This document shows positions 21,140-39,100 of a DNA stretch of 64,000 nt, one piece after another. The stretch spans positions 10,124 through 74,123 of the forward strand of contig JAFRRE010000129.1 in assembly GCA_017428285.1 (NCBI GenBank), read 5' to 3'. Position 1 is the stretch's first letter, and each line of letters begins with the position of its first letter. A model generated the notes under the pieces. It ran no database searches and was not told where the DNA came from. It saw nothing but the letters and a program-made list of their open reading frames with translations. The DNA comes from Bacteroidales bacterium. Its GTDB lineage: Bacteria; Bacteroidota; Bacteroidia; Bacteroidales; F082. Both the position numbers and the translations under genes were made by a program.

Positions 21140-21343
21140 ATGAAACCATACAATGACGAAGAAAAATCTTCTTCAATTGCTTCAGAGCCACAGTTAGCCT
21201 ATGGAAGCGTGACACAAACGACACCCATACCAAAATGCTCCACTCAAGGAGTTCCTGAAGGATATATGACATTGGAGCATTTCGGAGAACTCTTTCATCA
21301 AAAACTTGATGACTGCTATGCGCACTTACCAAGTAATAATTAG
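21140..21343 (+). CDS. Small putative antitoxin upstream of ParE-like toxin
   Basis: A 67-aa protein, MKPYNDEEKSSSIASEPQLA..., ending MTLEHFGELFHQKLDDCYAH. It overlaps the downstream ParE-like toxin gene by 26 bp and has its own promoter box. The C-terminal MTLEHFGELFHQKLDD stretch looks like the toxin-contact helix of small Bacteroidota antitoxins; the N-terminal half is low-complexity and no DNA-binding fold is visible. Role inferred from position only. Confidence 0.6.
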   Translation: MKPYNDEEKSSSIASEPQLAYGSVTQTTPIPKCSTQGVPEGYMTLEHFGELFHQKLDDCYAHLPSNN

Positions 21344-21623
21344 TTACGCAGTTTTGACAGAATTGGAGGCAATGGCACAATACATTGCCTCCATTTATCG
21401 GCCTGATAGCGGGCATAAATATGTCAATAGGATATTAGGCCAATTGGCTGCTTTATCCTATTCAGCAGATGCTTATCAATATAGTCGTTTCAAAATGGCA
21501 AAGACCATCCATCCAAAAGCAAAAACACTAACCATTATAAACCGCAAATGGACTGTCGTTTTCCACATTGATGGTGATTTTGTCATTGTAGACAAAATCT
21601 TCCCAGCTAAAACTATTTACTAG
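21318..21623 (+). CDS. ParE/RelE-superfamily toxin
   Basis: A 101-aa protein with the ParE/RelE pattern: YQVIISYAVLTELEAMAQYIASIYRPDSGHKYVNRILGQLAAL helices, then beta strands TLTIINRKWTVVFHIDGDFVIVDKIFP. ParE relatives poison gyrase, RelE relatives cleave mRNA; sequence alone does not separate them. I chose the ATG at 21318 (MRTYQVIIS); the ATG at 21309 is also possible. It overlaps the upstream putative antitoxin and converges on the glycosyltransferase gene with only a 6-bp gap. Confidence 0.75.
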   Translation: MRTYQVIISYAVLTELEAMAQYIASIYRPDSGHKYVNRILGQLAALSYSADAYQYSRFKMAKTIHPKAKTLTIINRKWTVVFHIDGDFVIVDKIFPAKTIY

Positions 21624-23700: not shown

Positions 23701-24870
23701 CTAGTTTTCAGGCTTGCTATCCAAATTGACTTTTACCGCCTTGACTTTCGTGCTATCAACCTCGGGTAGACCATCGCCAATATTCTCCAAACCACAGGCA
23801 TTCAGAATCTTACCCTTGATAGCAGTGTTCTGCATCCATCCTGTGAATTGTTCTGCACCCGGGCCGTAGGCGTATACCATCACCGGCAAGCAGGTGTGGC
23901 TTCCAGTGGAATAGCAGAAGGACACATTGGTATATTTACCTTTCTTGTCGGGAAGGGTCAAACCACCCGTCTCATGGTCGGCAGTGACAACAACCAAGGT
24001 GTTTCCATGTTCCTCAGCATAGTCCAACGCGATTTGAATGGTTTGGCTGAAGTCGACCACCTCATCCACCATCCATGCCGAGTCGTTAGCATGGCATGCG
24101 AAGTCAATTTGCGAACCTTCCACCATGAGGAAGAAGCCATTCTCAGCATCATCAAGGGTGTTCAAGGCAGTCTTCACGGCACGAGGCAAGAAGTCGCCCC
24201 GTTTCGCCGCGGGAGGCATGTGACCGTCATCGGCCAAAACCGCATATTTCTTGCAGGTCACATCAATATCGGCAAGGGTGTCGTAAACCTTCCAGTCCAA
24301 CTCATTCTCCATCTTCTCAATAAGGTTGATGCTGTCCTTGCGTTGGTTAAAGTGTTTCATGCCACCGCCGATGATCAGGTTCAAATAAGGATTTTCGGCC
24401 ATCTGCACGGCAATATCTTCATATTGCTTGCGATGCGGCACCTTTGCATAAAAAGAGGCAGGCGTGGCATGGGTGACATAACTCGTCACAACGATGCCTG
24501 TTTCCTTACCCTGTTCAGCAAAGACTTCGAGCAAGGTCTTGACCGGAATAGTGTCCGGATTCACGCCAATCATGGCGTTGTTAGTCTTATGGTCGCTGGC
24601 GAGAGCTGTTCCGCCCGCAGCTGAGTCAGTGATGTCATTACTGGCCGAGTGGGTGTCGACCACACCAATGTAAGGGAACTTGGAAAACACCAACTCCTGA
24701 CGGGTGGCCAACATGCCTGCATAGACCTGCGGCAACGCTGTGCCGTCGCCAATGAAATAGATGACGTTTAAGGCCTTTGGTGTCTCTGAGGTTTCTTTCT
24801 CGGTACAACATGAGGAAAAGATGCCCAACATAACGAGGGCGATTAAGGATAGTGCAATTAGTTTTTTCAT
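23701..24870 (-). CDS. Alkaline phosphatase lipoprotein
   Basis: A 389-aa lipoprotein (GIFSSCC lipobox, Cys21) of the PhoA superfamily. It releases phosphate from phosphomonoesters in the periplasm or on the surface. Active-site features are YFIGDGTALPQ (metal-binding Asp42), the nucleophile in TDSAAGGTALA (Ser83), EGSQIDFACHAND, and VVTADHETGGLTL with the metal-binding Asp-His. Length is typical for the compact Bacteroidota form. The gene stands alone between two copies of the same palindromic repeat family; no Pho box was recognised. Confidence 0.92.
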   Translation of the reverse strand: MKKLIALSLIALVMLGIFSSCCTEKETSETPKALNVIYFIGDGTALPQVYAGMLATRQELVFSKFPYIGVVDTHSASNDITDSAAGGTALASDHKTNNAMIGVNPDTIPVKTLLEVFAEQGKETGIVVTSYVTHATPASFYAKVPHRKQYEDIAVQMAENPYLNLIIGGGMKHFNQRKDSINLIEKMENELDWKVYDTLADIDVTCKKYAVLADDGHMPPAAKRGDFLPRAVKTALNTLDDAENGFFLMVEGSQIDFACHANDSAWMVDEVVDFSQTIQIALDYAEEHGNTLVVVTADHETGGLTLPDKKGKYTNVSFCYSTGSHTCLPVMVYAYGPGAEQFTGWMQNTAIKGKILNACGLENIGDGLPEVDSTKVKAVKVNLDSKPEN

Positions 24871-24888
24871 ATTGGATTGATTTGTTTA

Positions 24889-24958
24889 GCTATCAGCAGT
24901 CAGCCGTCAGCTTTCAGCCACAGTCAAACCAGGCTGATAGCTGATAGCTGACTGCTAT
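24889..24958. repeat. Intergenic palindromic repeat, GCTGATRGCTGA family (copy 2)
   Basis: AGCTATCAGCAGTCAGCC on the left pairs with GGCTGATAGCTGATAGC and GCTGACTGCT on the right. It is upstream of the alkaline phosphatase and downstream of the transketolase C-subunit gene, so it may act as a spacer terminator. Confidence 0.75.
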
Positions 24959-24979
24959 TTAATCGTTTATTCTACCATT

Positions 24980-25933
24980 TTATTGCTTCCTCCCAACAAC
25001 TTTTTTCACTGCCTCCACGATGTCGGGCGTGTCAAGATGATAGGCTTTCAGCAACTCATCAGGCGTACCGCTTTGGCCGAAAACATCATTGACGGCCACC
25101 ATCTCCATCGGGCAAGGCAAATTCAAAGCCAACACCTGTGCGATGCTGTCGCCCAAACCGCCATTACGTTGGTGCTCTTCTGCAGTGACCACACAGCGGG
25201 TCTTCCCTACCGACTTCAGCACAGCCTCCACATCCAAGGGTTTGATGGTGTGTATGTTAATCAGCTCAGCATTGATGCCCATTTCTTTCAGGATTGGCAA
25301 CGCTTGCACGGCTTTCCAAACGAGGTGGCCGCAAGCAAAAATAGTCACATCGGTGCCTTCTTGCAGCATTTGGGCCTTGCCGATGACAAATTTCTCATCC
25401 ACTGGGGTGAAATTCGGCACTTTGGGGCGACCGAAACGCAGGTACACTGGGCCATCGTACTCGGCAGCGGCAAGGGTGGCATTCTTGGTCTGGTTGAAGT
25501 CGCAAGGCACGATAACAGTCATGTTGGGCAGCATCTTCATCAGGCCAATATCCTCGAGGATCTGGTGTGTGGCACCGTCTTCACCAAGGGTAACACCAGC
25601 ATGGGAGGCAGCAATCTTCACGTTCTTGTTGGAATAGGCCACACTCTGACGGATCTGGTCATAGACGCGTCCCGTGGAGAATGCCGCAAAGGTGCCCGTG
25701 AACGGCACGAAGCCGCTCAAGGCCATGCCAGCCGCCATGTTAATCATATTGGCCTCGGCGATGCCCGTCTGGAAGAAACGCTCGGGGAACTCCTTGGCGA
25801 AGTCGCCCATCTTCAGCGAGCCAGTGAGGTCGGCACAAAAGGCCACCACCTTGGGATTGCGGCGCCCTGCTTCGAGCAAGCCTTCACCGAACCCCGATCT
25901 TGTATCTTTGTTGTTTTGAATTGTAAAGTCCAT
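24980..25933 (-). CDS. Transketolase, C-terminal subunit (split enzyme)
   Basis: A 317-aa protein covering the pyrimidine-binding and C-terminal domains of transketolase. Segments are RSGFGEGLLEAGRRNPKVVAFCADLTGS, TGIAEANMINMAAGMALSGFVPF, SHAGVTLGEDGATHQILEDI and GVNAELIN-like INAELINIHTIKPLD. It pairs with the N-terminal subunit at 26060-26902 to form the thiamine-diphosphate enzyme of the non-oxidative pentose-phosphate pathway. Split transketolases of this type are known in many bacteria and archaea. The two genes are separated by 126 bp containing a REP-like palindrome, so expression of the two halves may differ. Confidence 0.93.
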   Translation of the reverse strand: MDFTIQNNKDTRSGFGEGLLEAGRRNPKVVAFCADLTGSLKMGDFAKEFPERFFQTGIAEANMINMAAGMALSGFVPFTGTFAAFSTGRVYDQIRQSVAYSNKNVKIAASHAGVTLGEDGATHQILEDIGLMKMLPNMTVIVPCDFNQTKNATLAAAEYDGPVYLRFGRPKVPNFTPVDEKFVIGKAQMLQEGTDVTIFACGHLVWKAVQALPILKEMGINAELINIHTIKPLDVEAVLKSVGKTRCVVTAEEHQRNGGLGDSIAQVLALNLPCPMEMVAVNDVFGQSGTPDELLKAYHLDTPDIVEAVKKVVGRKQ

Positions 25934-26059: not shown

Positions 26060-26902
26060 TTAGTAATCCCCTAAAGTCTCCTCCAATTGCGACAATGCAT
26101 TAGCGGCTTGTTCGTCGTTGGGGGCGGAGCCATGCCATTTGTGCGTGCCCATCATAAAGTCGACGCCAAAGCCCATCTCGGTGTGGGCCAAGATGAGTTG
26201 CGGAGCACCTTGGAAAGCGTTCCCGCGGGCGAATTTCAGGGTGTTCACCACAGCCTGCATATTATTGCCGCTCATCTCGAGGACATTCCAGCCGAAGGCC
26301 TCGTATTTGGCACGCAAGTCGCCGAGGTTGAGCACCTCATCGGTGGGACCGTCGATTTGTTTCTTGTTGTAGTCGATGATGGCCACAAGGTTATCCACAC
26401 CTTTGGCGGGCGCATACATGGCAGCTTCCCATATCTGGCCTTCCTCTTGCTCGCCGTCGCCCATTAGGACGAAGACAAGGTGTTTATCACCGTTCAGTCG
26501 CTTAGCTTGTGCTGCGCCGACAGCCACCGAAAGGCCTTGTCCGAGCGAGCCTGAAGCAATACGGACACCTGGAAGACCTTCAGCCGTGGTGGGATGGCCT
26601 TGCAAGCGAGTACCAAGGCGGCGGAAGGTAGCCAACTCTTTGACAGGGAAATAGCCGCGTCTTGCCAAGATGCTGTAAAACATCGGGCTGATGTGGCCGT
26701 TGGAGAGGAAGAACATGTCCTCGCCGTTGCCGTCCATGCGGAAGTTGGCGGGGTCGATTTGCATTTGGTCGAAATAAAGGGCTGTGACAATGTCGGTTGC
26801 GCCCAAAGAGCCGCCCGGATGCCCCGACTGGCAGCCATGCACCATACGGATGATGTCGCGGCGCACCTGAGAAGCGATTCTTTCTAATTCGTTGATGGTC
26901 AT
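26060..26902 (-). CDS. Transketolase, N-terminal subunit (split enzyme)
   Basis: A 280-aa protein equal to the thiamine-diphosphate-binding domain of transketolase. It has SGHPGGSLGATDIVTALYFD, LSNGHISPMFYS, SGSLGQGLSVAVGAA and the ThDP motif GDGEQEEGQIWEA (148-160) with IIDYNK. Upstream gene of the split pair; it transfers two-carbon ketol units in the cytoplasm together with the C-subunit at 24980. A good -7 box (TAGCTTTG) lies 36 bp upstream. Confidence 0.94.
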   Translation of the reverse strand: MTINELERIASQVRRDIIRMVHGCQSGHPGGSLGATDIVTALYFDQMQIDPANFRMDGNGEDMFFLSNGHISPMFYSILARRGYFPVKELATFRRLGTRLQGHPTTAEGLPGVRIASGSLGQGLSVAVGAAQAKRLNGDKHLVFVLMGDGEQEEGQIWEAAMYAPAKGVDNLVAIIDYNKKQIDGPTDEVLNLGDLRAKYEAFGWNVLEMSGNNMQAVVNTLKFARGNAFQGAPQLILAHTEMGFGVDFMMGTHKWHGSAPNDEQAANALSQLEETLGDY

Positions 26903-26937
26903 ATTGGAAGTGTTTTGATTTTATGAGAATTTGACTG

Positions 26938-26945
26938 CAAAGCTA
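26938..26945 (-). promoter_or_regulatory. Bacteroidota -7 promoter box for the transketolase pair
   Basis: On the minus strand TAGCTTTG fits TAnnTTTG, 36 bp before the start at 26902. Confidence 0.45.
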
Positions 26946-26954
26946 CGGAAAAAA

Positions 26955-27143
26955 CTATTCCAAATCACTTTTGTCGACCTTGTTTTTCTTTCGGTCATAG
27001 TCCTTCTTCGACTTATGCACTTTCGACGGCCGCATACTGACCTGCTTGCCGTACTGCTCGATTTCCTTCTCGCGGTCGGCTTTGAGGAGGGCTTTCAGGG
27101 TGCTGAATTTTTGCTTATTTTTCTTTTTCTTGTTGGATTTCAT
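26955..27143 (-). CDS. Small highly basic protein of unknown function
   Basis: A 62-aa lysine-rich protein (MKSNKKKKNKQKF...) with alternating charged residues, predicted helical in the middle (TLKALLKADREKEIEQYGKQ). It lies 52 bp upstream of the transketolase start on the same strand. Length, charge and position resemble small basic proteins found beside housekeeping genes in Bacteroidales, but I do not recognise a named family. It could bind nucleic acid; this is inference. Confidence 0.55.
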   Translation of the reverse strand: MKSNKKKKNKQKFSTLKALLKADREKEIEQYGKQVSMRPSKVHKSKKDYDRKKNKVDKSDLE

Positions 27144-27208: not shown

Positions 27209-28438
27209 TTATTTCAAACCCAAACACCATTTTGCTCTATTCGTCAGAAGATGCTTCACTCTCTCGTAGGGTATCGCAAAATGGAATGCACCATCAGCGA
27301 AACAGCTGATTCCGTAGGGTTGGAAAGAAAACACAACTCCTTCCTCTGACAAACCCGGTCTTGGAAACGTATAGCCACCGATAGGATTGCCTTCTTCATC
27401 CAAATTGGTTACACCTGCACGAATACTGGATTCAGATACCTGATTGTCTGGCGACTTCAACGCTTCTTCGACAAGAATATTCGCCAGTTCTTCTTCATAA
27501 CCAGGCTTAAACAAATAGGAATTATCAATCTCTTGGTTATTAACATGGTCGAAAGAGACCAATCTTTCAGTGAAACCACCATGAGTACCTCCACTATAGA
27601 TAGATTCACATTGTTGATAGGTCACAAACCTATCATTACATATCATTGTCCGCATATTTAGTTCTTGATAAAGGCCCGTTGGAATAAAATCCTCTTCCAT
27701 ATCTCCATAGTCTGCTTCTATGATGGCAAAATAGACATCGGCAGCAAATTGGGCAATTTGACGATTATCCATAGGGTCACCCGTATATTCCAAGACTCCT
27801 CTCGGACTTATCTTACAATTATGAATCTTGGCCGCAATTGTTCCATCCACTTCGTCATTATTTGCCGCAACTATTTTTTCAGCCAACCATTTCCTTATCA
27901 CTTTGGCATTAGCAACAGAGATGGTCGGAAAATCTACTTCAAAATAGTATTGGGCAACACTATCCTCCTTAACGAAACTTTGGGTCTTTCGTTCGAAAGA
28001 CGAAAGCACTGCCGTTAGCGTTGAAAGCTGAGCCAAGCTGTTCTCATCCGAAAAGTCTACAAGCAGACATTTGAAAGGAGTGCATACGTAAAAACTATAC
28101 GATGAAGTATCCGAATAAGGTAAGACTTGCAACGCGGGAGTTTCAAGCCACACTTTATTCTTTTCAAATATCCTATTCGAGCAAATCGTTTCACCCACCC
28201 CAAAATAAAAGGCCCTTCCGTCGACAATACAAATGGTGTCAGCAATAGGTGAAATTCCCTCTTCTTCTGTCACCACTTCTTCTTCATCCGCCATGGAAAA
28301 GACGTTCTCATTATCGGTTTCAGTCTCTTGCACCTTGACCGCCTCTACTTTCTTGACGGTACTATTGGTGCATGATTCGAGAATACTACCCTGCAATAGA
28401 AACATGCAGAGGATTGTCATTATATGTAACTTGTTCAT
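27209..28438 (-). CDS. DUF3298-type lipoprotein
   Basis: A 409-aa lipoprotein (GSILESC lipobox after MNKLHIMTILCMFLLQ). An acidic linker (about 30-60) is followed by a beta-rich region. The C-terminal half resembles DUF3298/RsiV-like domains: SIYSGGTHGGFTERLVSFDH near 290, then YLFKPGYEEELANILVEEAL and VVFSFQPYGISCFADGAFHFAIPYERV. In RsiV this domain binds lysozyme; here it is an extracytoplasmic sensor or binding domain of unknown ligand. I chose 28438 for the lipoprotein signal; 28447 is possible. It has its own -7 box overlapping the end of the upstream gene, yet follows the AAA/WG genes closely, so it may be both co-transcribed and independently expressed. Confidence 0.72.
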   Translation of the reverse strand: MNKLHIMTILCMFLLQGSILESCTNSTVKKVEAVKVQETETDNENVFSMADEEEVVTEEEGISPIADTICIVDGRAFYFGVGETICSNRIFEKNKVWLETPALQVLPYSDTSSYSFYVCTPFKCLLVDFSDENSLAQLSTLTAVLSSFERKTQSFVKEDSVAQYYFEVDFPTISVANAKVIRKWLAEKIVAANNDEVDGTIAAKIHNCKISPRGVLEYTGDPMDNRQIAQFAADVYFAIIEADYGDMEEDFIPTGLYQELNMRTMICNDRFVTYQQCESIYSGGTHGGFTERLVSFDHVNNQEIDNSYLFKPGYEEELANILVEEALKSPDNQVSESSIRAGVTNLDEEGNPIGGYTFPRPGLSEEGVVFSFQPYGISCFADGAFHFAIPYERVKHLLTNRAKWCLGLK

Positions 28439-28472
28439 ATCAGTCATTATTAAATATGTTAAAGTCTTGGAT

Positions 28473-29111
28473 TTACTTGGCAAAAATATACTTTTTTAAA
28501 TTCATTCGCAGTTTTAGGTTAAAAATTCTTCTCTTGTTTTTTGCTCTTCGTCGCACGCGTTTTTCAGCCACGCGCCGCATGGCATAGAGCTGTTTGCCGC
28601 TATCAATAGCTTGGAATTTCACCACAACAGTTCCGGTTTTGTCGATAAAACCGTATATGTTGATTTCTTTATCATCGGTCATGCCGAAGCCATCATCGTC
28701 CATGTAATAGCGACCATCGGGATTGAGTTGCCAAGCCACTTCAGCAACTCCATTCTTAAACAACCTGATAAACGAGGGATAATGGAAACTCAAGCGACGA
28801 GCACGTTGAATGGCTTTTTGCGGGAGGGATTGCAAGGAATCCCAATCGATGTCGTTTTGACTGACGGTGACCAGCATTTCATCACTATCCATGAACTCGT
28901 AGGCACGTTTTGTGTTGTTGTCCATCAGGAAACGAGGTTTCCAATAACTGCCAATGACTTCGCTGACGATGGACATTCCATCACCCCAATCTTCGGTCTT
29001 AGCTGGATAAGTCCTGTAACGTTCTGTATTCAAACATTCGTAAATACTCCTTGGGAGTGTGTCTGCGTTTAGCAGTTCGTTGAAATGATTGTCGATTGTT
29101 GTCATATTCAT
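28473..29111 (-). CDS. Hypothetical protein with WG-like segment and basic C-terminus
   Basis: A 212-aa cytoplasmic-looking protein without signal peptide. Residues 145-165 (EINIYGFIDKTGTVVVKF) resemble a single WG repeat. The C-terminal 45 residues are very basic (RRVAEKRVRRRAKNKRRIFNLKLRMNLKKYIFAK), possibly binding nucleic acid or membrane. I do not recognise a family. It lies between the WG-repeat membrane protein and the DUF3298 lipoprotein, after a hairpin at 29138-29176. The promoter of the next gene overlaps its last codons. Confidence 0.6.
   Translation of the reverse strand: MNMTTIDNHFNELLNADTLPRSIYECLNTERYRTYPAKTEDWGDGMSIVSEVIGSYWKPRFLMDNNTKRAYEFMDSDEMLVTVSQNDIDWDSLQSLPQKAIQRARRLSFHYPSFIRLFKNGVAEVAWQLNPDGRYYMDDDGFGMTDDKEINIYGFIDKTGTVVVKFQAIDSGKQLYAMRRVAEKRVRRRAKNKRRIFNLKLRMNLKKYIFAK
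28481..28488 (-). promoter_or_regulatory. Bacteroidota -7 promoter box for the DUF3298 lipoprotein
   Basis: On the minus strand TATTTTTG fits TAnnTTTG, 43 bp before the start at 28438, inside the last codons of the preceding gene. Confidence 0.4.
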
Positions 29112-29137
29112 ATTGTTTTAGTGCGTTAAAGGCTGAA

Positions 29138-29176
29138 AGAAGAGGGTGTGTCATGGAAGGACGCACCCTCTCTTCA
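29138..29176 (-). terminator. Hairpin between WG-repeat gene and downstream gene
   Basis: GAGAGGGTGCGTC pairs with GACACACCCTC around a 7-nt loop, 15 bp after the stop of the WG-repeat gene. It has only a weak U-run (TTCTTT), so it is more likely a partial terminator or processing site than a strong terminator. Confidence 0.5.
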
Positions 29177-29190
29177 AAACATCATAATCT

Positions 29191-30360
29191 TTATAGTTTC
29201 TCCCCGCATTCTCTCCCTTTGTCGTCGAGAAGAACTGAGCCCTCTTCACCCTCGCAATGGTAGAGATTGACAGCAATAGCGGTAATATCGTCGTACAACG
29301 GCGGCGTAATTATGTTGCCATTGCGATCCATCAAGCCATAGTACCTGTCCGCAGAACGATACTTCAGGCAATGCGCTGTGGCCTTTTTCAGCTCCCCAAA
29401 CTCATCATAGTCATCGGTGATGTACTCCATCTTTTCGATGTTCGTGTAATCACAAGAGTTCACTACATTGCCCTCCATGTCGAGCAGCATACCTGTGTGG
29501 TTCTGCAAACACACCGAGATATAGTCCGTGTTGCGGACGGTGACCTTTTCGTACTCACAGGGCAGGAAAGGTTCCCCGTTGGCACGAAGTAGCCCTTGAC
29601 GACCTTCAGTGTCATGAATCAGCCAAAAGCCTTTCGACTCGTAATGGATGTGGCTATAATCAGGTTTCACTCTCCATTCGCCGTCCCGCCCGATGAGGCC
29701 CATTTTTCCGTTGTCACCCGACATTAAGCACAACCCATTATGGAAGCAATAGTCGTCAATGCATGGCGTGTAAGGAAATTCCTTGTTGATTACTGGTTGG
29801 CCCTTATGGTCGATGAAGTGGAGTATTCCCTTTTCATAGACACAAGCCGCGCCTTCAGAGAAAATCCAAGCTTTCTGATATTGCGCTGGTATGACCACCT
29901 CTCCCGTGAAGCGGTTGAAGTAGCCGCGCTTTCGCTCCTCAACGGTAGAGAAACAGGCTAGACTGTCGCCATCCGACGACTTGCAAATCCAGCGAATGTC
30001 TGTCGCCGTGCGTCGGCCCGTGGTTGTGTTGTAGAGGTAGGTAGGGCAGCTGCTGTGATAGACGACATAGGGGCTGACATACTCGTTGCTGAAATCATGC
30101 AGATAGGTTAGACTGTGATCCATGCGATGATACCTGTAGTCAATAATGATATCGCCAACACCATCGATGATTACGATAGTGAGCGCCACAGCAAAATACA
30201 GCGTCAAAGCGGCAGCACTTGTGGCAAACACATACCACACTGCTCTTGCGAACTTGTTCTCGGCCTTGTAGCCGAACATTTTGGCCACCCAGCGAGCGGC
30301 TTGCTTGATGCCTCTACCAAAGGTGGTGGAGGACTTGACTTTTTGTTCATTTTTACTCAT
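29191..30360 (-). CDS. Membrane-anchored WG-repeat protein
   Basis: A 389-aa protein with a basic cytoplasmic N-terminus, one transmembrane helix (WYVFATSAAALTLYFAVALTIVII, about 45-68), and an extracytoplasmic region made of WG-type beta repeats. Examples are RGYFNRFTGEVVIPAQYQ, LHFIDHKGQPVINKEFPY, MGLIGRDGEWRVKPDYSH, QGLLRANGEPFLPCEYEK and YGLMDRNGNIITPPLYDD. WG repeats form propeller- or barrel-like binding surfaces; ligands are unknown. It lies 65 bp downstream of the pseudokinase-AAA+ gene on the same strand and is probably its partner. Start chosen at MSKNEQK (30360) rather than 30372; both are plausible. Confidence 0.75.
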   Translation of the reverse strand: MSKNEQKVKSSTTFGRGIKQAARWVAKMFGYKAENKFARAVWYVFATSAAALTLYFAVALTIVIIDGVGDIIIDYRYHRMDHSLTYLHDFSNEYVSPYVVYHSSCPTYLYNTTTGRRTATDIRWICKSSDGDSLACFSTVEERKRGYFNRFTGEVVIPAQYQKAWIFSEGAACVYEKGILHFIDHKGQPVINKEFPYTPCIDDYCFHNGLCLMSGDNGKMGLIGRDGEWRVKPDYSHIHYESKGFWLIHDTEGRQGLLRANGEPFLPCEYEKVTVRNTDYISVCLQNHTGMLLDMEGNVVNSCDYTNIEKMEYITDDYDEFGELKKATAHCLKYRSADRYYGLMDRNGNIITPPLYDDITAIAVNLYHCEGEEGSVLLDDKGRECGEKL

Positions 30361-30425
30361 AGTTTTAAACATTTAGATGGTTAGTGAAATATTACTTTTT
30401 GATTTCAATTTGTTTCATTGTGGTA

Positions 30426-32282
30426 TCAATTGTACGCACGATATCCAATGGTCTGGCGTTGGGTCGTGTTTTTGTTCATGAACTCGTCCCAGATCCTCCT
30501 GTATTGCCGCAACTCCTCGGTTGTGACAGAAGGGCGAGTGGCTAAAAGTACTTTCTTCAGCAAGGCTTCATCGATGACAAGGTTATCCTCATGGGTGCTA
30601 AGACAAGCGCTGAAGGTGAGTCTAGCCGCCTCTTTTACCACATACGAGAGATCGCCTGCGGTGAAGCCTTCACACATCTTGGCTAGGCCTTTATAGTCAA
30701 TGTGTGATACATGTGGCACCTTGTCAACTTCCATCTTCAAGAGTTCCTCCCGACCCGTGGCATCAGGCAGGTCGACAAAGAACACCTTGTCGAAACGGCC
30801 ATGCCTGATAGCGGCTCTGTCCAAACAATCGAGACGGTTGGTCATACCTATAACAAAGACGTTCTTCTGGATGCAATCGTTAAGCTGAACAAGCCACTCA
30901 GCTACCTCGCCAGCCGTATACTCACTTCCTCTCATGTCGCGTTTTGCGAGGTGGGCGTCAATCTCGTCCACCAACAACAGACATCCTCTGTTGTTTTGTT
31001 TCGCTTTTTCCTCTGCTTTTTGAAATAAGTCACGAATAAGTCCTTGTGTACCATGGATATAAACCGAGCCAAGGTCGGACGGGTTCACGAAGAACGTATC
31101 CATACCTGTTTCTTCGGCCAAGCGATTAGAAATGTAGGTCTTACCACAACCCTGTGGCCCGTAAAGGATAAAGTTGTTCGGCTTGATGCCAAACTTAGCG
31201 GCCAGTTCACGGTTGTTCATGATGTCAACAAAGTCACGACGAAGGGCATTCTTGAGCTCTTCCATGCCTGCAACGGCCAGCAGACCTTCCCCTTCCTTTA
31301 CCTTGGCTTCAATCTTCAGCCGAGGTGTTTCCGAGTCGGATTCTTGCTGTTCATCTTTTGTTTCATCCCCTTTATTTTCGTTCTTAGCGGCATCACTACC
31401 CTCTAACTCCTGAGTCTTGGTAATGACGGGAGCTTTGGCATCAATACCATTTTCGCTCGCAAATCTGCTGAGTGCGTAAAACATGTCATACAAATTAATG
31501 TAACGCAATTTATTCTTGCTGAGGGCTTTACAAAGGATATCCTTCAGCCCATCCGGCATGTCGTCAAAAACTGGTGCAATTCCAGAATTGGTGATGGCAC
31601 GAATTTGACATTCTGTTGTTGACTCGTCGATGTCGTAGGGATAGTAGCCCTGTAGCATGTATCCCAATAGCATCCCTATTGAGAACACATCGGAAGCTGA
31701 CGAGTAACGTCCCTGATAAGTCTCTGGAGCACGACAGCAGGGGTTCAAGTCTTTAGTGACGAAAGGAGGATTTCCAGAGCATGGGCCAGATACATGATCC
31801 AATCCTCCGAGATGCACAATCACGCCCCCTTTCACTCTCGACACAATGACCGTATCGGGGTTCAGGTTGTAGTGTCCACCGCCGTTGGTGTAGACAGTCA
31901 AGTCCATCACGGCGGTCATCACTTGTAGAGCGATGTTGACAGCAACACTTACAATCAATGGCCTGCCGCACATCAAAGCCCGAAGCGTCGTTCCCTCAAA
32001 GTGCTTTGCGGTCATGTACGACATCGTCCTGCCTCGATAGCTAAGCGAGCCGGTTTTGATAGGTTGGGGAAAGGCTGCATTCGTCAATTTCGAAAGCATG
32101 GCAAACTCCCTCATCTTGCCTTTATCCATCAACATCCTGCTGTTGTGGTTGTCATAAACGATCAGATACACTTTTTGGCTTTTAGGTGTCAGCGCTTCGT
32201 ACACTTCCCGGTAGAAACTCTGCTTGCTGACCAAGCTCAGAATCCGCAAACCGGCAAACGATTCATTCAAGTTAAGCATCAT
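30426..32282 (-). CDS. Pseudokinase-AAA+ ATPase fusion protein
   Basis: A 618-aa cytoplasmic protein. Residues about 1-275 have a protein-kinase fold: the C-lobe signature APETYQGRYSSASDVFSIG (185-203) is clear, but the catalytic HRDLKPEN is replaced by HYNLNPDT (137-144) and the DFG position reads LGG (158-160). The catalytic Asp residues are therefore missing and it should be a pseudokinase. A charged linker (289-325) leads to an AAA+ ATPase domain with Walker A GPQGCGKT (375-382), Walker B LLLVDEID (435-442), sensor MTNR, and arginine finger in RAAIRHGRFDK (489-499). The AAA part resembles FtsH/Cdc48-like classic AAA modules, without a protease domain. It heads a minus-strand cluster with WG-repeat and DUF3298 genes. 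The role is unknown; a regulated remodelling ATPase linked to envelope sensing is one reading. Confidence 0.8.
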   Translation of the reverse strand: MMLNLNESFAGLRILSLVSKQSFYREVYEALTPKSQKVYLIVYDNHNSRMLMDKGKMREFAMLSKLTNAAFPQPIKTGSLSYRGRTMSYMTAKHFEGTTLRALMCGRPLIVSVAVNIALQVMTAVMDLTVYTNGGGHYNLNPDTVIVSRVKGGVIVHLGGLDHVSGPCSGNPPFVTKDLNPCCRAPETYQGRYSSASDVFSIGMLLGYMLQGYYPYDIDESTTECQIRAITNSGIAPVFDDMPDGLKDILCKALSKNKLRYINLYDMFYALSRFASENGIDAKAPVITKTQELEGSDAAKNENKGDETKDEQQESDSETPRLKIEAKVKEGEGLLAVAGMEELKNALRRDFVDIMNNRELAAKFGIKPNNFILYGPQGCGKTYISNRLAEETGMDTFFVNPSDLGSVYIHGTQGLIRDLFQKAEEKAKQNNRGCLLLVDEIDAHLAKRDMRGSEYTAGEVAEWLVQLNDCIQKNVFVIGMTNRLDCLDRAAIRHGRFDKVFFVDLPDATGREELLKMEVDKVPHVSHIDYKGLAKMCEGFTAGDLSYVVKEAARLTFSACLSTHEDNLVIDEALLKKVLLATRPSVTTEELRQYRRIWDEFMNKNTTQRQTIGYRAYN

Positions 32283-32329
32283 TTTCTCAATTGTATTTGG
32301 TTTATTATCAAATCAAGTAACTTTTCAAA

Positions 32330-32400
32330 CAGGAGGGCAGGGCATGCATAGCAATGCCCGGTGCCCGAATACGGGACACCGTTTTGGCCTCCTTTGGCCA
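32330..32400 (-). other. Structured leader hairpins upstream of the pseudokinase-AAA+ gene
   Basis: On the minus strand, GGTG-T-CCCG-TATT-CGGG-C-ACC forms a stable hairpin, followed by GGGCATTGC. It is enclosed by CAAAGGAGG and CCTCCTGTTTG arms. It ends about 50 bp before the start codon, so it could be a 5'-UTR control element. The GCATTG after the hairpin recalls the cores at 14915 and 45153, but the similarity is weak. Confidence 0.45.
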
Positions 32401-32584
32401 ATAGGATTGATAATAAAAAGTACTAAAGCGCAGCAAAGCAGTGCTGCACTTACTGGGTTTGAACAGAGAGACGAGCAGCCGACAATGCCAGCACCCTGTA
32501 CTCACCCACCGGATGACAACCTTAGATTTCGCCTCGATTGTGAGGCGTTTATGAATAAGACTATTTCGGTTTTTTTTGTACATA

Positions 32585-32856: not shown

Positions 32857-35800
32857 CTATTTCTTCACAAACAACTTTCTCAAGCTACCATATTTTGATT
32901 GTACCAACAAGAGATATACCCCTGCCACATAATCATTCACATCCAATATCAAGGTCTCAACAGCATCAGCTTCAACCTTATCTACGCTCTGTCCAGTCAT
33001 ATTAAATACCGTCACACTATGGATGCCCTCACCCCTAATATTAAGGATATCATTAGCGGGGTTGGGGAAGATGCTCACATAGCTGAAGTTTTCGTCTTCA
33101 CTCGCAGCGCTTCGGAAACGGACTATGTATGGCTCACCCATTGTGCCGACCATGGCATCCGTCTCATAGTTGAGAGTCTCTTCTGAACCGCTGTATTCCA
33201 TACCTGTCTCCATATCATAAAGACTAAAATTTAGGTTAGCAGCATCTTCACCTGTAATAGTGAGAAATGCCATCCAACGGTCAATTGGCTCGACGTACAT
33301 CAGACGAACGCTGCCTCGACACTCGTCAGCGGCGAATGCGGCCAACTCATAATTCTCCGCTCTCAACTCTTCGCCATCCAGTTCGATGATGGCCGTCACC
33401 GTCATGTTGTGGGGATAGGCATGCATGTCCGGAACCCAGTGGTTATTATCCGCTGTATGGTTGGCTTTCTGTTCCACACCTCTCCCCCCTTCGGGATAAA
33501 CCAATGTCTTGGGTTGGTTGCTACTCGAATAGTACATCAGTCCCATGCCAGGCTCAATGGTATTGAGAGAGCCATACCAACCGTAGTTTGGATAGTAATC
33601 CGCATAGCCTTGCTGCGACTTCAGCATGTCGCCTTGAATGGCATTCATCCCTGACAATGCTTCATTTACATCCATGGCTGTCGACGGCACATATCCCATC
33701 CATGTCCATCCATGGCTTAAGGTAATGGGGTGCTGCGAAGGCACCGCTCCCATTCCCGTCATAGCAACCGAACATGGTGCGTCAGTCTTGATCTTATACG
33801 AAGATTCGTTGTTGATGCCGGACAGAGAGCCGTACCAGCCGTAGCCTGCATAATAGACGATGTAGCCGTCGGCCTGCGATCGGATGCTGATACCATTGCC
33901 ATCTAGGCCGTCCTGAAGCATCCCTAGGCCTTCAATACCTTCCTGCTCGATGTAGGTACTCCACCAGTTCCAACCGCTAGTAAAGCTGATGGTCTGGGTA
34001 ACAGGCGTTCCTATCTGCACACTCACAACATTCGACGGATCCGACTCTCCTCCAAAGTAGTTGGTCGTGACTTGGTAGTCGTATATGCCATCAGGAAGGT
34101 TGCTATCAGTGTATGTATTGTCAGTCAGGTTAGTGGCCACGGCGTTGCCGTTGCGGTAAAGGTTGTAGGTGTACGTGCCGTCTGTGAGGTAGGTCTTGAT
34201 GAGCCAAGAGCGGTTATTCAAACGGCTCCAGCTGCTTACACCAGATTGAGAATATAAAGAAGCATCTGAAACATTGACTCCTGAATAGGAACAATATGAT
34301 GCAGGCTTGTAAACATCTGAATAAAAAACAACCCATAAGTCCTGAGTGTAATCGATAGGAACAGGCTGTGTGAAAACTATATCTTGCCAACTGCCAGCAG
34401 TAGCTGTATAATTCTGCTGATAAACGAATTCAGTTATGGAGGCAACGTTACCCTTGTAGATTCCCACCGTATATTCTCCTGCACGACGTGAATAAAAAGA
34501 GACTTTTTCAATAGTCATTCCAGCATTTGCCATCAATACGGAAACAGAATAACGCTGCGCCCAATAAGTCCTATCGCCTTGTGTGTTTGCCCCAGCGCCC
34601 GATGTGCTTGGCTCATCTAACCCATAGTGCAATATAGAGGATTCAGTGTTTGGGGTTTGCCACGAAAGACTGACATCGTGGCCATTAGTATTTGCCACCA
34701 TGTTGGTTGGAATTGGCCCCGAAAAATGGATTTCAGCAAATGCTTTGCTTGACTTCAATGACATTGTGCCATCGTTTTTCACACTTTTTACATAATAAAA
34801 ATGGGTACCGTAATTGACATTGTGGTCTGTATAACTGGAATTGTTCAAATGTGCGGCCACCAAATCTCCATCTCGATAAAGCCTATAATGAGACGCTCCC
34901 GAGACTGGCGACCAATTGATGATTACGTTTTGTCCACTGACCGATGTAGAAATATTGTTCGGAGGGGCGATGGAAGGAGTGTTAGGGTAGCTTCCAAATA
35001 CGGCACCATTCAGGTAATTCATATCATAACTCGGGTGAATGGCTCCAATAGCATAATAGCCATCGTAATTGCCTCCCCACCCCAAGACAAAATGGAAATA
35101 GTCGTACTCATCGTACCCGTCACAAATGAAAATATGTCCTACGTCAGTTTGCTGATTTTTACCACGATAGATCACTGGATGTTCAAGATCTAAATCGCTT
35201 TTGAGCATAGCTATCCATTGGGCATCAGTATAATTAATCTTGCGAAGATAGTGGGAATTATGAGTATAGTTGAAATATGTCCATAATGCAGTGTCGACAT
35301 CCGGAGGATTGGTGCCGCTGGCCGTGTCGCCATAATTGATGTCCACAGAGACCCCACAATGATAAAGAAGTGTAGCAACAGCCGAGGCTTCGGCATCTGA
35401 ATATCCATGGAAATAGTCGTTAAGCATATTGTCCCAGTCATAGACCGTTTCACCGAAGTTGGCGTATTGGACTCCGAATTCTGGATGAGCATGGGGAGTG
35501 TAGGAATGTTCCCCAATACCTCTGATAGGATGCTCCCAGTATTTTAGAAACTGAGCCATCGCCACTGATCCACATCCCCCGACGCAATGCCCCCCTGGGC
35601 CTTTGGGAGCTTCTGGACATAAATTATTGAAAGGAACCCGTTTGTGACTCCATTTGGTTCGAATTAAAGGACTCACCACCGTCCTTGACTTGGGTTCCAA
35701 ACCTCTTCCATTAATCAAGTCGTTCCACTTCGAAAGGATTTCCTCAGTGGCAGCCAAACGGTCTGTCTTAACCAAGGCAATTTGATCGTCGTATGATTTC

Positions 35801-36126
35801 AACCAATCTCTAACTTCGTTACACATTTCTTCATTGCCAAACCCTCCATTGGTTGAATACCCCAACACAGGATGCACTGCATCGTCACCAGCGATGATGA
35901 CAAAGCATCGCTCATTACCAAAGACATAGAAATTCGGGAAAGATGCTTTTTCGGCGAAGTCGATCAGATGAATTTGCGGAACGCCTTCCACCTTGGAATT
36001 GAGGAAGGACTGTGCTACACGCTGGGCTGTTTGCACAGTCACGTTTTCGGCAAACACCAAGGTAGCCATACTTATGAACAAGGCTGTAAGTGCGACAATG
36101 ATGTTGTGTCTTCTCAAATTTTTCAT
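32857..36126 (-). CDS. Secreted C10-family cysteine protease (tandem copy 2)
   Basis: A 1089-aa secreted protease (1094 aa from the alternative start at 36141). After the signal peptide (ALTALFISMATLVFAEN) come a Spi-like propeptide (NVTVQTAQRVAQSFLNSK) and a C10 domain with the nucleophile in VGGCGSVAMAQ (Cys190 of the longer form) and His in DVGHIFICDGYD (His336). Two fibronectin-like segments follow (NISTSVSGQNVIINWSPV), with an anchor-J-like beta region between them, then tryptophan-rich repeats (WNWWSTYIEQEG, WTWMGYVPS). The last 75 residues form a T9SS sorting domain (SIFPNPANDILNIRGEGI to KLFVKK). It follows the paralogous protease by 12-27 bp, so the two are co-transcribed. Confidence 0.9.
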   Translation of the reverse strand: MKNLRRHNIIVALTALFISMATLVFAENVTVQTAQRVAQSFLNSKVEGVPQIHLIDFAEKASFPNFYVFGNERCFVIIAGDDAVHPVLGYSTNGGFGNEEMCNEVRDWLKSYDDQIALVKTDRLAATEEILSKWNDLINGRGLEPKSRTVVSPLIRTKWSHKRVPFNNLCPEAPKGPGGHCVGGCGSVAMAQFLKYWEHPIRGIGEHSYTPHAHPEFGVQYANFGETVYDWDNMLNDYFHGYSDAEASAVATLLYHCGVSVDINYGDTASGTNPPDVDTALWTYFNYTHNSHYLRKINYTDAQWIAMLKSDLDLEHPVIYRGKNQQTDVGHIFICDGYDEYDYFHFVLGWGGNYDGYYAIGAIHPSYDMNYLNGAVFGSYPNTPSIAPPNNISTSVSGQNVIINWSPVSGASHYRLYRDGDLVAAHLNNSSYTDHNVNYGTHFYYVKSVKNDGTMSLKSSKAFAEIHFSGPIPTNMVANTNGHDVSLSWQTPNTESSILHYGLDEPSTSGAGANTQGDRTYWAQRYSVSVLMANAGMTIEKVSFYSRRAGEYTVGIYKGNVASITEFVYQQNYTATAGSWQDIVFTQPVPIDYTQDLWVVFYSDVYKPASYCSYSGVNVSDASLYSQSGVSSWSRLNNRSWLIKTYLTDGTYTYNLYRNGNAVATNLTDNTYTDSNLPDGIYDYQVTTNYFGGESDPSNVVSVQIGTPVTQTISFTSGWNWWSTYIEQEGIEGLGMLQDGLDGNGISIRSQADGYIVYYAGYGWYGSLSGINNESSYKIKTDAPCSVAMTGMGAVPSQHPITLSHGWTWMGYVPSTAMDVNEALSGMNAIQGDMLKSQQGYADYYPNYGWYGSLNTIEPGMGLMYYSSSNQPKTLVYPEGGRGVEQKANHTADNNHWVPDMHAYPHNMTVTAIIELDGEELRAENYELAAFAADECRGSVRLMYVEPIDRWMAFLTITGEDAANLNFSLYDMETGMEYSGSEETLNYETDAMVGTMGEPYIVRFRSAASEDENFSYVSIFPNPANDILNIRGEGIHSVTVFNMTGQSVDKVEADAVETLILDVNDYVAGVYLLLVQSKYGSLRKLFVKK

Positions 36127-36153
36127 TATATTGAAATTCAACCTATTGGTTAT

Positions 36154-39100
36154 CTATTCCTTAACGAAACACTCCATAAACAAGTCGTTTTCAGTGTAGA
36201 TACGTAATATATATAAAGCCGATTCGTAACCATTTACATCAATTCGTATCTCCTCCTGTCCTTCTACTTCCCTGTCTTCCACCATCTGCCCAATCACATT
36301 GTACATAGTCACTCTTCTGATGCCCTCGCCTTTGATGGTAAGTACTTCATTGACGGGATTAGGAAAAATCTCTAATGGCGTAGTACTTTCTTCAACTCCG
36401 TCATAGTAAATGAAATTGGCCACCAAATGGCGCGGCTCTGTAACAGTGAATTGAATTGTCGGATTATTTGAGATAGCATTGCCGTTCTCCATCCAATTGA
36501 GGAAATTATAGTTCTCGTTTGGAATGGCATTCAAGATGCAGGTTTCTCCACATTGGTAAACGCCCGCTCCTGTTACTATGCCTACGCCTTCGGGATTGGT
36601 TTCGGCAGTGATTTCGTATGATTCTCTTGTGAAGTTGGCGACAAGATTGCGGTCGCTGGTCACAGTAAAGCTGTAGTTTGCTTGTGAAGAAGCTACATTC
36701 CCGTTCTCCATCCATCTGTCAAAGGCATAGCAGGCATCGGCCGTGGCGTGTACGGTGCAGGTCTGCCCATAGGTGAATATCCCGCCACCGCTGACGGTAC
36801 CGCCCTCAATCGGGCAGGCCGCTACGGTTACAGTATAGGTTTGTGCCGTAAAATGCGCAACGTAGGTCGCCGACTCGGTGACTGTAAAAGAAAAGCTGGA
36901 ATTTTCAGAAACTTGCACCCCGTTCTTCATCCATCTTTGGAAGTTGTAGCCTGCATTGGCCGTAGCAATCAGTGTACAGGTCTCACCATAGTTATAGCCA
37001 CCTGCACCCGTTACCATTCCTCCCCCAATTGGGTCGGCTATCGCGGTGATAACATAGGCTTGCATGGTGAAGTTGGCCACAAGCGTGCGGTTGCTCGTCA
37101 CCGTGAATGCATAAGGGTTATCGATCGAGACCGAGTTCCCATTCTCCGTCCAATTGACAAAACTGTAGCCCGCGTTGGCTGTTGCCATTACGGTGCAGTT
37201 GTCTTCATAATGGAAGGCTCCGCCGCCCGTCAACGTACCTCCGTTGGAAGGATTGGCTGAAACAGAGATGACATAGCTGTCCAGATGGAAATGCGCCACA
37301 AGGTTGCGATTGCCTGTTACAATAAAGGTATAATTAGCATTGGTCGAAACCTCATTGCCATTCTCCGTCCAGTTAATGAAGGTGTAGCCTGGGTTAGATG
37401 TTGCCATTACACTGCAGTTGTCTCCATGATGGAAGGCTCCGCCGCCCGTCACCATGCCTCCAGTAGAAGGATTTGCTGAAACAGAGATGGCATAGCTCTG
37501 TAGTTGGAAGTGCGCCACAAGGTCGCGGTCGCCCGTCACAGTGAAGGTATAGTTGGCATCCGTTGAAACCACGTTGCCGTTCTCCGTCCAATTTAGAAAG
37601 GTGTAGCCTGTGTTGAGTGTGGCGATTACGGTGCAGCTTTGGTTATAGTTGTAGGTGCCGCCGCCAGTGACCGTGCCGCCGTTGCTTGGATTTGCCGACA
37701 CCGAAACCGAGTATGTGGGATTGCCGACCTGCACATGGACCGTATTCGACGGGTCGGATTCGCCGCCGAAGTAGTTGGTGGTGACATGGTAGTCGTAAAA
37801 GCCGTCAGGCAGGTTGCTGTCGGTGCAGGTGCTCCCAGTCAAGTTGCTGGCAACGACATTACCATTGCGGTAAAGGTTGTATGTATATGTGCCGTCGGTA
37901 AGGTAGGTTTTAATCATACAAGAATAAGAGGGTCCAAAAGCTCTCCAAATAATACCATACAGATTGGAATACAAAGCTGCATTTTCTTTATCTGGCAAAT
38001 TATAATCGCAAAGCGGTGCTGGATAACCAATATTGGAATAAAAAACAACCCACAAATCCTGTGTATAATCGATTGACACAGGTTCGGGAAAGACAATGTC
38101 ATGCCAACTTTCAGCCGCAGCGTTGAAACTCTGTTGAAACAACAATTCATTCGGATTGTTTTCCTCTCCCATATAAATAAACAAGGTATAATTACCTGCG
38201 TAATAAAAAAAAGACGACACCTTTTCAATAGCCATGCCTGCATATTCACTTATTGTTGACGCTGGATAACGTTGCCCCCAATACGTACCATCTGGATAGC
38301 CTCTTTTATCTGTACAAGCACCTGTTCCATATTGAAGTATAGCGGTTTCAGCATTCGGTGTTTGCCATGAAAGATTGACATTTTGACTGTTGGCTGTAGC
38401 CTGTAGATTACTCGGAACGGGACCCGTAAAATGCAAATCAACAGTAGCGATGTTCGACCTTAAAGACATGGTACCGTCTGATTTCACGCTTTTTACGTAA
38501 TAAGTGTGCGAACCATAGCTGGCATTGCTGTCTGTATAGCTGGTGCTGGTCAAGTTGTTGGCAATCAAATCACCATCAAGATATACCTTGTAATACGCGG
38601 AACTGGGTACAGGTGACCAACTAATATTGACGGTTCTGCCATTGACAGTAGTAACCACATTGGAAGGTGGATTGATCGAGGTCTCATTGGGATGGCATCC
38701 AAACATGGCAGCATTACCGTATGTGTAATTCGTAGAGCCTTGATGCAAGTCTGCAATGGTGTAGTAGCCGTCAAATCGACCACCAATAACGCCCCATTCA
38801 AAATGGAAGAAGTCATTTTCGTCATAGCCGTCGCAAACAAAAATATGTGCATTGGTCCCTTGATTATCACTACACGCACGATATAACAAAGGTTGAAGAT
38901 TGTCCAAATCATTCTTTAGCATCGAAATCCATTGGGTGTTTGAATAGCTTAATTTAAACACGTAACTAGTAGTGGAGGCATAATCAAAATAGTATCTCAT
39001 AGCGCTGTCAAGTATTGGAGCAGCAACATTGCTTGTATCCGGGCCATAGTCCATATTGACAGACACACCGCAATGATATACCAAAGTGGCGACGGCTAAA

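Follow-up and report, generated by a model that had tools for sequence, protein, structure and literature searches.

Results

A kinase-like fold joined to an AAA+ ATPase

The window analyzed here is a 64,000-nucleotide stretch of contig JAFRRE010000129.1 from a Bacteroidales bacterium (assembly GCA_017428285.1), and our subject is a cluster of four minus-strand genes within it. The first gene encodes a 618-residue protein (30426–32282), and behind it lie genes for a 393-residue WG-repeat protein, a 212-residue protein and an exported 412-residue DUF3298 protein. An earlier inspection of the letters without database searches (the sequence-only reading) had pointed out this cluster, and its description stands with small corrections. 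As it had proposed, the 618-residue open reading frame (ORF) joins a kinase fold to an AAA+ ATPase. A protein search returned 199 homologues (E ≤ 1e-3), Pfam AAA matched with 93.8 bits, and the AlphaFold2 model (mean predicted local distance difference test score 84) begins with a two-lobed protein-kinase structure. The pseudokinase domain covers about residues 1–279 (31446–32282, minus strand), and the classical AAA+ domain residues 331–605 (30468–31292, minus strand).

The kinase fold lacks the residues of an active Ser/Thr kinase: I41 stands for the β3 Lys, N139 for the HRD-Asp, T144 for the loop Asn and G160 for the DFG-Asp, and the catalytic loop reads HYNLNPDT (residues 137–144; 31851–31874, minus strand) for HRDLKPEN. 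Residues were counted over 120 listed homologues of the 199. The HRD-Asp position holds Asn in 118 of them and Ser in one, and is missing from one truncated protein; the loop Asn is retained in 5 of the 120, the DFG-Asp in 25, and the β3 Lys in 4 of the 55 possessing an N-lobe. The loss of the catalytic Asp residues, claimed earlier for the window protein, is borne out, and the kinase is predicted to be dead across the entire clade.

The query, the 120 homologues and 51 ORFs from fetched loci (labelled L; genomes are labelled G) were aligned, leaving out the duplicates or broken copies of L001, L003, L058, L078, L079 and L081. Classes H-x-N (n = 125) and H-N-D/E (n = 35) were defined by the residue at the HRD-Asp position, so that the remaining residues alone serve as evidence; 12 rows fall in neither class, among them the duplicates L076_03 (a copy of the G022 gene) and L068_09/L082_01 (one gene). 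The dead group carries a near-strict signature, GGGH(Y/F)NxxPDT, and includes a subgroup of ∼520-residue proteins without N-lobe (64 of the 125 rows are gapped at the Lys column). The 35 H-N-D/E relatives from the fetched loci all keep the Lys and the loop Asn, and 33 keep the DFG-Asp. By these residues they look capable of catalysis, the four with H-N-E being doubtful.

Measured against its two nearest orthologues, the window's pseudokinase has a ratio of nonsynonymous to synonymous substitution rates of 0.17–0.20, the AAA part one of 0.08–0.10 and the linker one of 1.3 (45 codons, few changes). The pseudokinase is under constraint and has lost its catalytic residues, and the domain would therefore be kept for a role other than phosphotransfer. 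On the G108 contig (L003/L058) stop codons break the pseudokinase-AAA gene, and the adjoining WG gene is intact.

The ATPase, by comparison, is intact, as the sequence-only reading had held from its Walker A, Walker B and arginine finger. In the 120 homologues the Walker A Lys is present in 120, and the Walker B Glu, the sensor Asn and both arginines in 119 each (one gap each); pore loop 1 is aromatic in all (W in 86, Y in 33, F in 1). The window protein has Y408 in the pore loop and the paired arginines R493 and R496. Such a combination of Walker motifs, sensor Asn, arginine fingers and aromatic pore loop is the make-up of the substrate-threading rings of p97, Vps4 and FtsH, and it suggests that the 618-residue protein forms a ring. 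The protein shares the classical AAA clade with the D2 domain of p97/CDC48 and with archaeal and yeast Vps4. It differs in having a single AAA module behind a kinase-fold N-domain, whereas p97 begins with its N-domain and Vps4 with an MIT domain. We hold the structural claim, a dead kinase attached as a non-catalytic module to a working ATPase, with far more confidence than any biological role proposed below.

History of the family

A tree was built from the ATPase columns of 66 rows selected from the 172 aligned; it is unrooted. Forty-one H-x-N rows form one clade (support 100/99), sister to three ATPase-only genes, L066–L068 (99/94), and two further Asn-bearing sequences, L069 and L073, stand at separate positions. 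L040 (7731–9551) carries BspA-type leucine-rich repeats (LRR_5, 94.3 bits) where its relatives have the kinase domain, followed by the same ATPase, and groups with the kinase-AAA gene of L035 (100/99). On this tree, catalysis appears to have been lost more than once, and the kinase domain to have been dropped at least once and exchanged at least once. The direction, from active to dead, is inferred because the active-looking members share the canonical residues. The N-terminal kinase fold can be read as a swappable docking domain.

Linkage of the neighbouring genes

The neighbours were examined in 99 genomes of the genus and 393 of the order. The WG gene (29191–30372, minus strand) encodes a protein with a single membrane helix by hydropathy and a Pfam WG match over the cut-off (PF14903, 73.6 bits); its repeats probably lie outside the inner membrane. 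The 212-residue protein (28473–29111, minus strand) scores 18.6 bits against the same WG model, below the cut-off of 25.6, and belongs to an unnamed family whose related domains are elsewhere fused to A1S_2505-type domains. In one such place a gene resembling an RNA 2′-phosphotransferase (L083, 1776–2987; 191.5 bits, under the cut-off of 239) adjoins the A1S_2505 fusion. The DUF3298 protein (27209–28447, minus strand; 40 bits) has an N-terminal hydrophobic segment ending in ILESC and is a probable lipoprotein. The earlier domain readings of the WG and DUF3298 proteins are thereby supported. No sigma factor was found among the four genes with Pfam.

The H-x-N fusion occurs in 6 of the 99 genus genomes (G001, G022, G108, G004, G065 and G028), four of which also carry a 212-residue-type gene. 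Seven genomes have the 212-residue family, at 8 places in all, of which 4 lie no more than 12 kb from the fusion. DUF3298 relatives (E < 1e-30) occur in 4 genomes, 3 of them fusion genomes, and WG relatives (E ≤ 1e-20) at 21 places in 17 genomes, 4 adjoining the fusion. Overlap at the genome level gave p values of 1e-4 (212-residue family), 5e-4 (DUF3298) and 5e-4 (WG), with three of the six fusion genomes representing one orthologous locus. In the order, the 212-residue family is present in 6 genomes and the ATPase family (E ≤ 1e-50) in 13, both in 4 (p 1e-5); in other families of the order the two genes are direct neighbours in L073 and separated by 3.5 kb in L068.

Seven pseudokinase-AAA loci offer context (the window, G022, G001, G108, G004, G065 and, at a contig end, G028), four of them one orthologous locus. 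DUF3298 genes are near in 4, WG genes in 5 and the 212-residue family in 5. The expectation that the neighbours co-occur thus stands as a non-random linkage; as a fixed four-gene system it is not borne out. G108 lacks the 212-residue and DUF3298 genes, G115 (L080) has the WG, 212-residue and DUF3298 trio at the same site with no ATPase, and 17 of the 21 WG places in the genus stand apart from the fusion. In G115 a TROVE/Ro60-vWA protein gene (L080, 4678–6756) lies between the trio and the transketolase gene described below.

Mosaic alleles

The window was compared in 250-base steps with G022 (L001) and G001 (L002). Identity is 94–100% over the upstream leader, the N-lobe, most of the ATPase and the 212-residue gene. 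It is 74–88% in the pseudokinase C-lobe, where G022 and G001 resemble each other, 62–87% in parts of the WG gene, where the better-matching partner switches midway, and 69–81% in the DUF3298 gene (against L001 only). In these three genomes the abrupt switches fit exchange between diverged alleles, and the varying parts are those that one would expect to recognize something.

RNA elements

A 281-base leader directly upstream of the pseudokinase-AAA gene (32300–32580, minus strand) is predicted to fold far more stably than shuffled sequences (−94.4 kcal/mol, z −4.88), and holds three of the six lowest z values among 240 minus-strand windows. In 12 genomes searched it is 95–98% identical in G001, G022 and G108, with no match in the other nine; within this set it accompanies the pseudokinase-AAA gene only. 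It has no Rfam match. A short ORF (91–95 residues) overlaps it; a one-base gap shifts the end of this ORF, and its coding is therefore doubtful. The leader is a candidate RNA element that may act as an attenuator or a small RNA.

Between the WG and 212-residue genes lies a stable hairpin (29135–29175, minus strand; z −3.78 for 29105–29200, with 0 of 200 shuffles folding as well). It may split the transcript there, and on its account we dropped the locus as a single operon. Elsewhere in the window, very stable folds are predicted for both strands of 24801–25000 and 21201–21400 (z roughly −4 to −6.5), perhaps terminator or repeat hairpins.

A variable chromosomal site

The cluster lies directly upstream of a conserved border formed by a 62-residue basic ORF and a transketolase N-terminal gene, the latter named by eye (26060–27143, minus strand). 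For 20 more genus genomes, taken from 83 rows, mostly from the top with some skipped, we compared the 10 kb upstream of the transketolase gene. Eleven sites have no large insert. Four carry type I restriction-modification (R-M) genes (L111, L113, L115 and L114, the last with TIR/nSTAND-cluster genes in addition), one TIR and nSTAND genes (L099), one TPR genes (L110) and one other genes (L116); two give no information, as L102 runs into a contig end and in L106 the gene was not called. The assignments rest on family models for three genes of L111, the R subunit of L114, and L099, L110, L080 and L116, and on similarity clusters for L113 and L115. The site is variable, and suggestively at most of a defence type. 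The G004 contig with the fusion gene bears an HsdR match ∼8 kb past it. Upstream of the cluster, 32857–39813 encodes two large secreted C10 peptidases with an I69 inhibitor propeptide and a Por-type sorting tail.

The wider family and its ADP-ribose neighbours

In 34 of 52 distinct loci the ATPase has a TY-Chap1/YbjN relative no more than two genes away, mostly at a distance of 0–135 bases. These counts used a profile built from L028 and are slightly off: the L039 anchor was not called by the ORF caller, and a small neighbour in L038 may have been lost to an opposite-strand ORF. In another branch, L030, L031, L034, L035 and L070–L072 group the kinase-AAA gene with an 826–855-residue Hsp70 relative, and in five of these seven the next gene belongs to a small family without Pfam match, which we take to be TerB-like. 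L040 falls within this branch, whose loci apparently form a separate chaperone-type island.

In 6 of the 9 loci of one branch with an active-looking kinase (L026, L027, L029 and L059–L061) the kinase-AAA gene stands with TY-Chap1-type, NrtR-like Nudix, A1S_2505 and ADP-ribosylglycohydrolase (ARG) genes, and a seventh has a glycohydrolase fragment. The Nudix gene was named from Pfam NUDIX and NrtR_WHD, and the first part of the A1S_2505 protein is vWA-like by eye. The chance of seven glycohydrolase loci, estimated by density, is ∼3e-13 (72 rows were entered where the listing has 70), but these loci all represent a single orthologous island. In G065 the H-x-N locus has two TY-Chap1-type genes, a DUF3298 gene, a phosphatase-ADP-ribosylglycohydrolase protein and a 212-residue-type domain fused to A1S_2505. 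At the window's own site, the WG gene of G108 is followed by Y_phosphatase3 (197.5 bits) and A1S_2505 (150.6 bits) genes, and G001 has a Metallophos gene (39.1 bits). The window cluster is connected with ADP-ribose by its relatives only.

Discussion

Comparison with known systems

CP1 bacterial pseudokinases are linked to the predicted ATPase COG3899 (PMC12599244, in whose main text "AAA" and "Bacteroid" do not occur). As described in the passages drawn on, they resemble the 618-residue protein in being cytosolic pseudokinases physically linked to a predicted ATPase. The difference lies in the ATPase: COG3899 is not the classical AAA family that the 618-residue protein matches (PF00004, 93.8 bits). 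The AAA_16 model, with which COG3899 presumably goes, stays below its cut-off at 15.4 bits, in a comparison that did not include a COG3899 model. Pseudokinase-ATPase links are already known; none in the parts of the literature consulted involves this class of ATPase, this lineage or this context.

The best PADLOC match of the 618-residue protein is the anti-phage ATPase IetA/IteA (92.7 bits), but the IteA NCBIfam model scores 83.9 bits against a cut-off of 510, and the match is limited to residues 292–597. In IetAS the partner IetS is a serine protease; the three neighbours have no PADLOC match, the wider neighbours not having been scanned for IetS. PD-T4-6, a defence with an active kinase, gave 44.5 bits with a model that has no curated cut-off, and the catalytic residues are absent here. 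The DUF3298 protein shares its domain with the anti-sigma factor RsiV but has 3s5t, not RsiV, as its PDB sequence match, and Pfam finds no sigma factor among the four genes.

Proposed explanation

The evidence is most economically read as a remodelling ATPase that uses a dead kinase as its adaptor and is encoded in a modular, recombining island, one with relatives of conflict type. The 618-residue protein would remodel proteins as an AAA+ ATPase of the kind of p97-D2 and Vps4, most likely by forming a ring and threading them through it; its kinase fold would no longer phosphorylate and would serve for docking or recognition. In its relatives a small partner is encoded next to the ATPase, in most cases a peptide-binding chaperone of the TY-Chap1/YbjN type; in the window's clade the membrane-anchored WG-repeat protein would occupy this partner position, with the 212-residue and exported DUF3298 proteins behind it. 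At the envelope, the WG and DUF3298 proteins may act as sensors or anchors for something; the 212-residue protein and the pseudokinase may deliver the target to the ATPase for unfolding or extraction, within a conflict, probably anti-phage, island. As a whole we offer this explanation tentatively, as possible rather than probable.

Several points weigh against it. HsdR has 242 matches in the 99 genus genomes (table sum), and within 10 kb on either side of the 83 transketolase genes at least 4 were seen against 1.5 expected (p 0.07), a weak enrichment; counting upstream only, a choice made post hoc, 0.76 were expected (p 0.008). In L113 another conserved gene stands between the transketolase and R-M genes, and much of the window's surroundings is not defence-like (two C10 proteases with sorting tails, other exported proteins). 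Neither an ADP-ribosylglycohydrolase within 10 kb of the window's ATPase gene (profile built from L027) nor a TY-Chap1 gene near its cluster (the L028 profile) was found. Among four TY-Chap1-type examples, L028 and L024 are over the Pfam cut-off, L057 is just below and L065 has no match. To these are added the free-standing WG genes, the intergenic hairpin that may split the transcript and, in the literature searched, the absence of a family member with a measured function.

A bolder version is, in our estimate, unlikely. It would have a new class of p97-like conflict machine, gated by a dead-kinase receptor, with the membrane WG protein connecting it to a sensor in the envelope. Recombination between strains would exchange the surfaces used for recognition (the C-lobe of the pseudokinase, the ectodomain of the WG protein and the DUF3298 domain) and leave the motor constant, and the structured leader RNA would drive expression.

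Alternative explanations

The cluster could be a housekeeping system for envelope sensing, a function that the sequence-only reading had named as one speculation, and for quality control. Its WG and DUF3298 proteins would sense stress and its ATPase would clear membrane proteins that are damaged, and the cluster would play no part in conflict. A one-helix WG protein beside an exported DUF3298 protein agrees with this, as does the role of the DUF3298-type RsiV as a lysozyme receptor (PMC5014341 and PMC4183432, in the parts used here). A gene found in so few of the genus genomes, at a variable site and with mosaic alleles, is unlike a housekeeping gene, and we regard such a role as doubtful.

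It is comparably improbable that the cluster is a branch of the ARG-centred systems predicted to counter phage ADP-ribosylation, with the ATPase refolding or clearing ADP-ribosylated proteins that TY-Chap or the 212-residue protein passes on to it. Section 3.8 of PMC9503650 lists TY-Chap1, a Nudix regulator, phosphatases and ADP-ribosylglycohydrolase as components of ARG-centred conflict systems, and relatives of the window fusion have these as neighbours: the six active-looking loci and the fragment in the seventh, the glycohydrolase of G065, and the phosphatase-family and A1S_2505 genes of G108 and G001 at the window's site. The six loci are orthologous, however, and count nearly once; the Metallophos family gene is also at the site in the R-M genomes L113 and L114 and hence is not specific; profiles found no glycohydrolase, Nudix, A1S_2505, phosphatase or TY-Chap1 gene in the window cluster; and that section names no AAA+ or kinase component.

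Somewhat less likely still, there may be no joint system: an autonomous pseudokinase-AAA gene would stand by chance beside WG, 212-residue and DUF3298 genes in a mosaic island. WG genes and the trio do exist without the ATPase, allelic identity shifts from gene to gene, and a hairpin lies between two of the genes, but other families of the order again show the 212-residue and ATPase genes linked (L068, L073; p 1e-5), and G065 the linkage of DUF3298.

That the kinase domain is still an active enzyme, for example another kind of transferase, is very improbable: the αC Glu (60 of 61 H-x-N sequences), the APE Glu (125 of 125) and the group's own signature are kept, and PMC12599244, in the passages used here, refers to SidJ, SdjA and SelO as having unusual activities, but the β3 Lys, HRD-Asp, loop Asn and mostly the DFG-Asp are gone together, and half of the H-x-N rows lack the N-lobe.

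Implications

If the island of our proposed remodelling ATPase is a conflict system, a p97-type ATPase would join the chaperone and ADP-ribose networks predicted for phage conflict. The family itself offers one ATPase with active-looking, dead, deleted and replaced kinase domains, a natural experiment on what a pseudokinase does; the effect of a pseudokinase on its ATPase is therefore directly testable.

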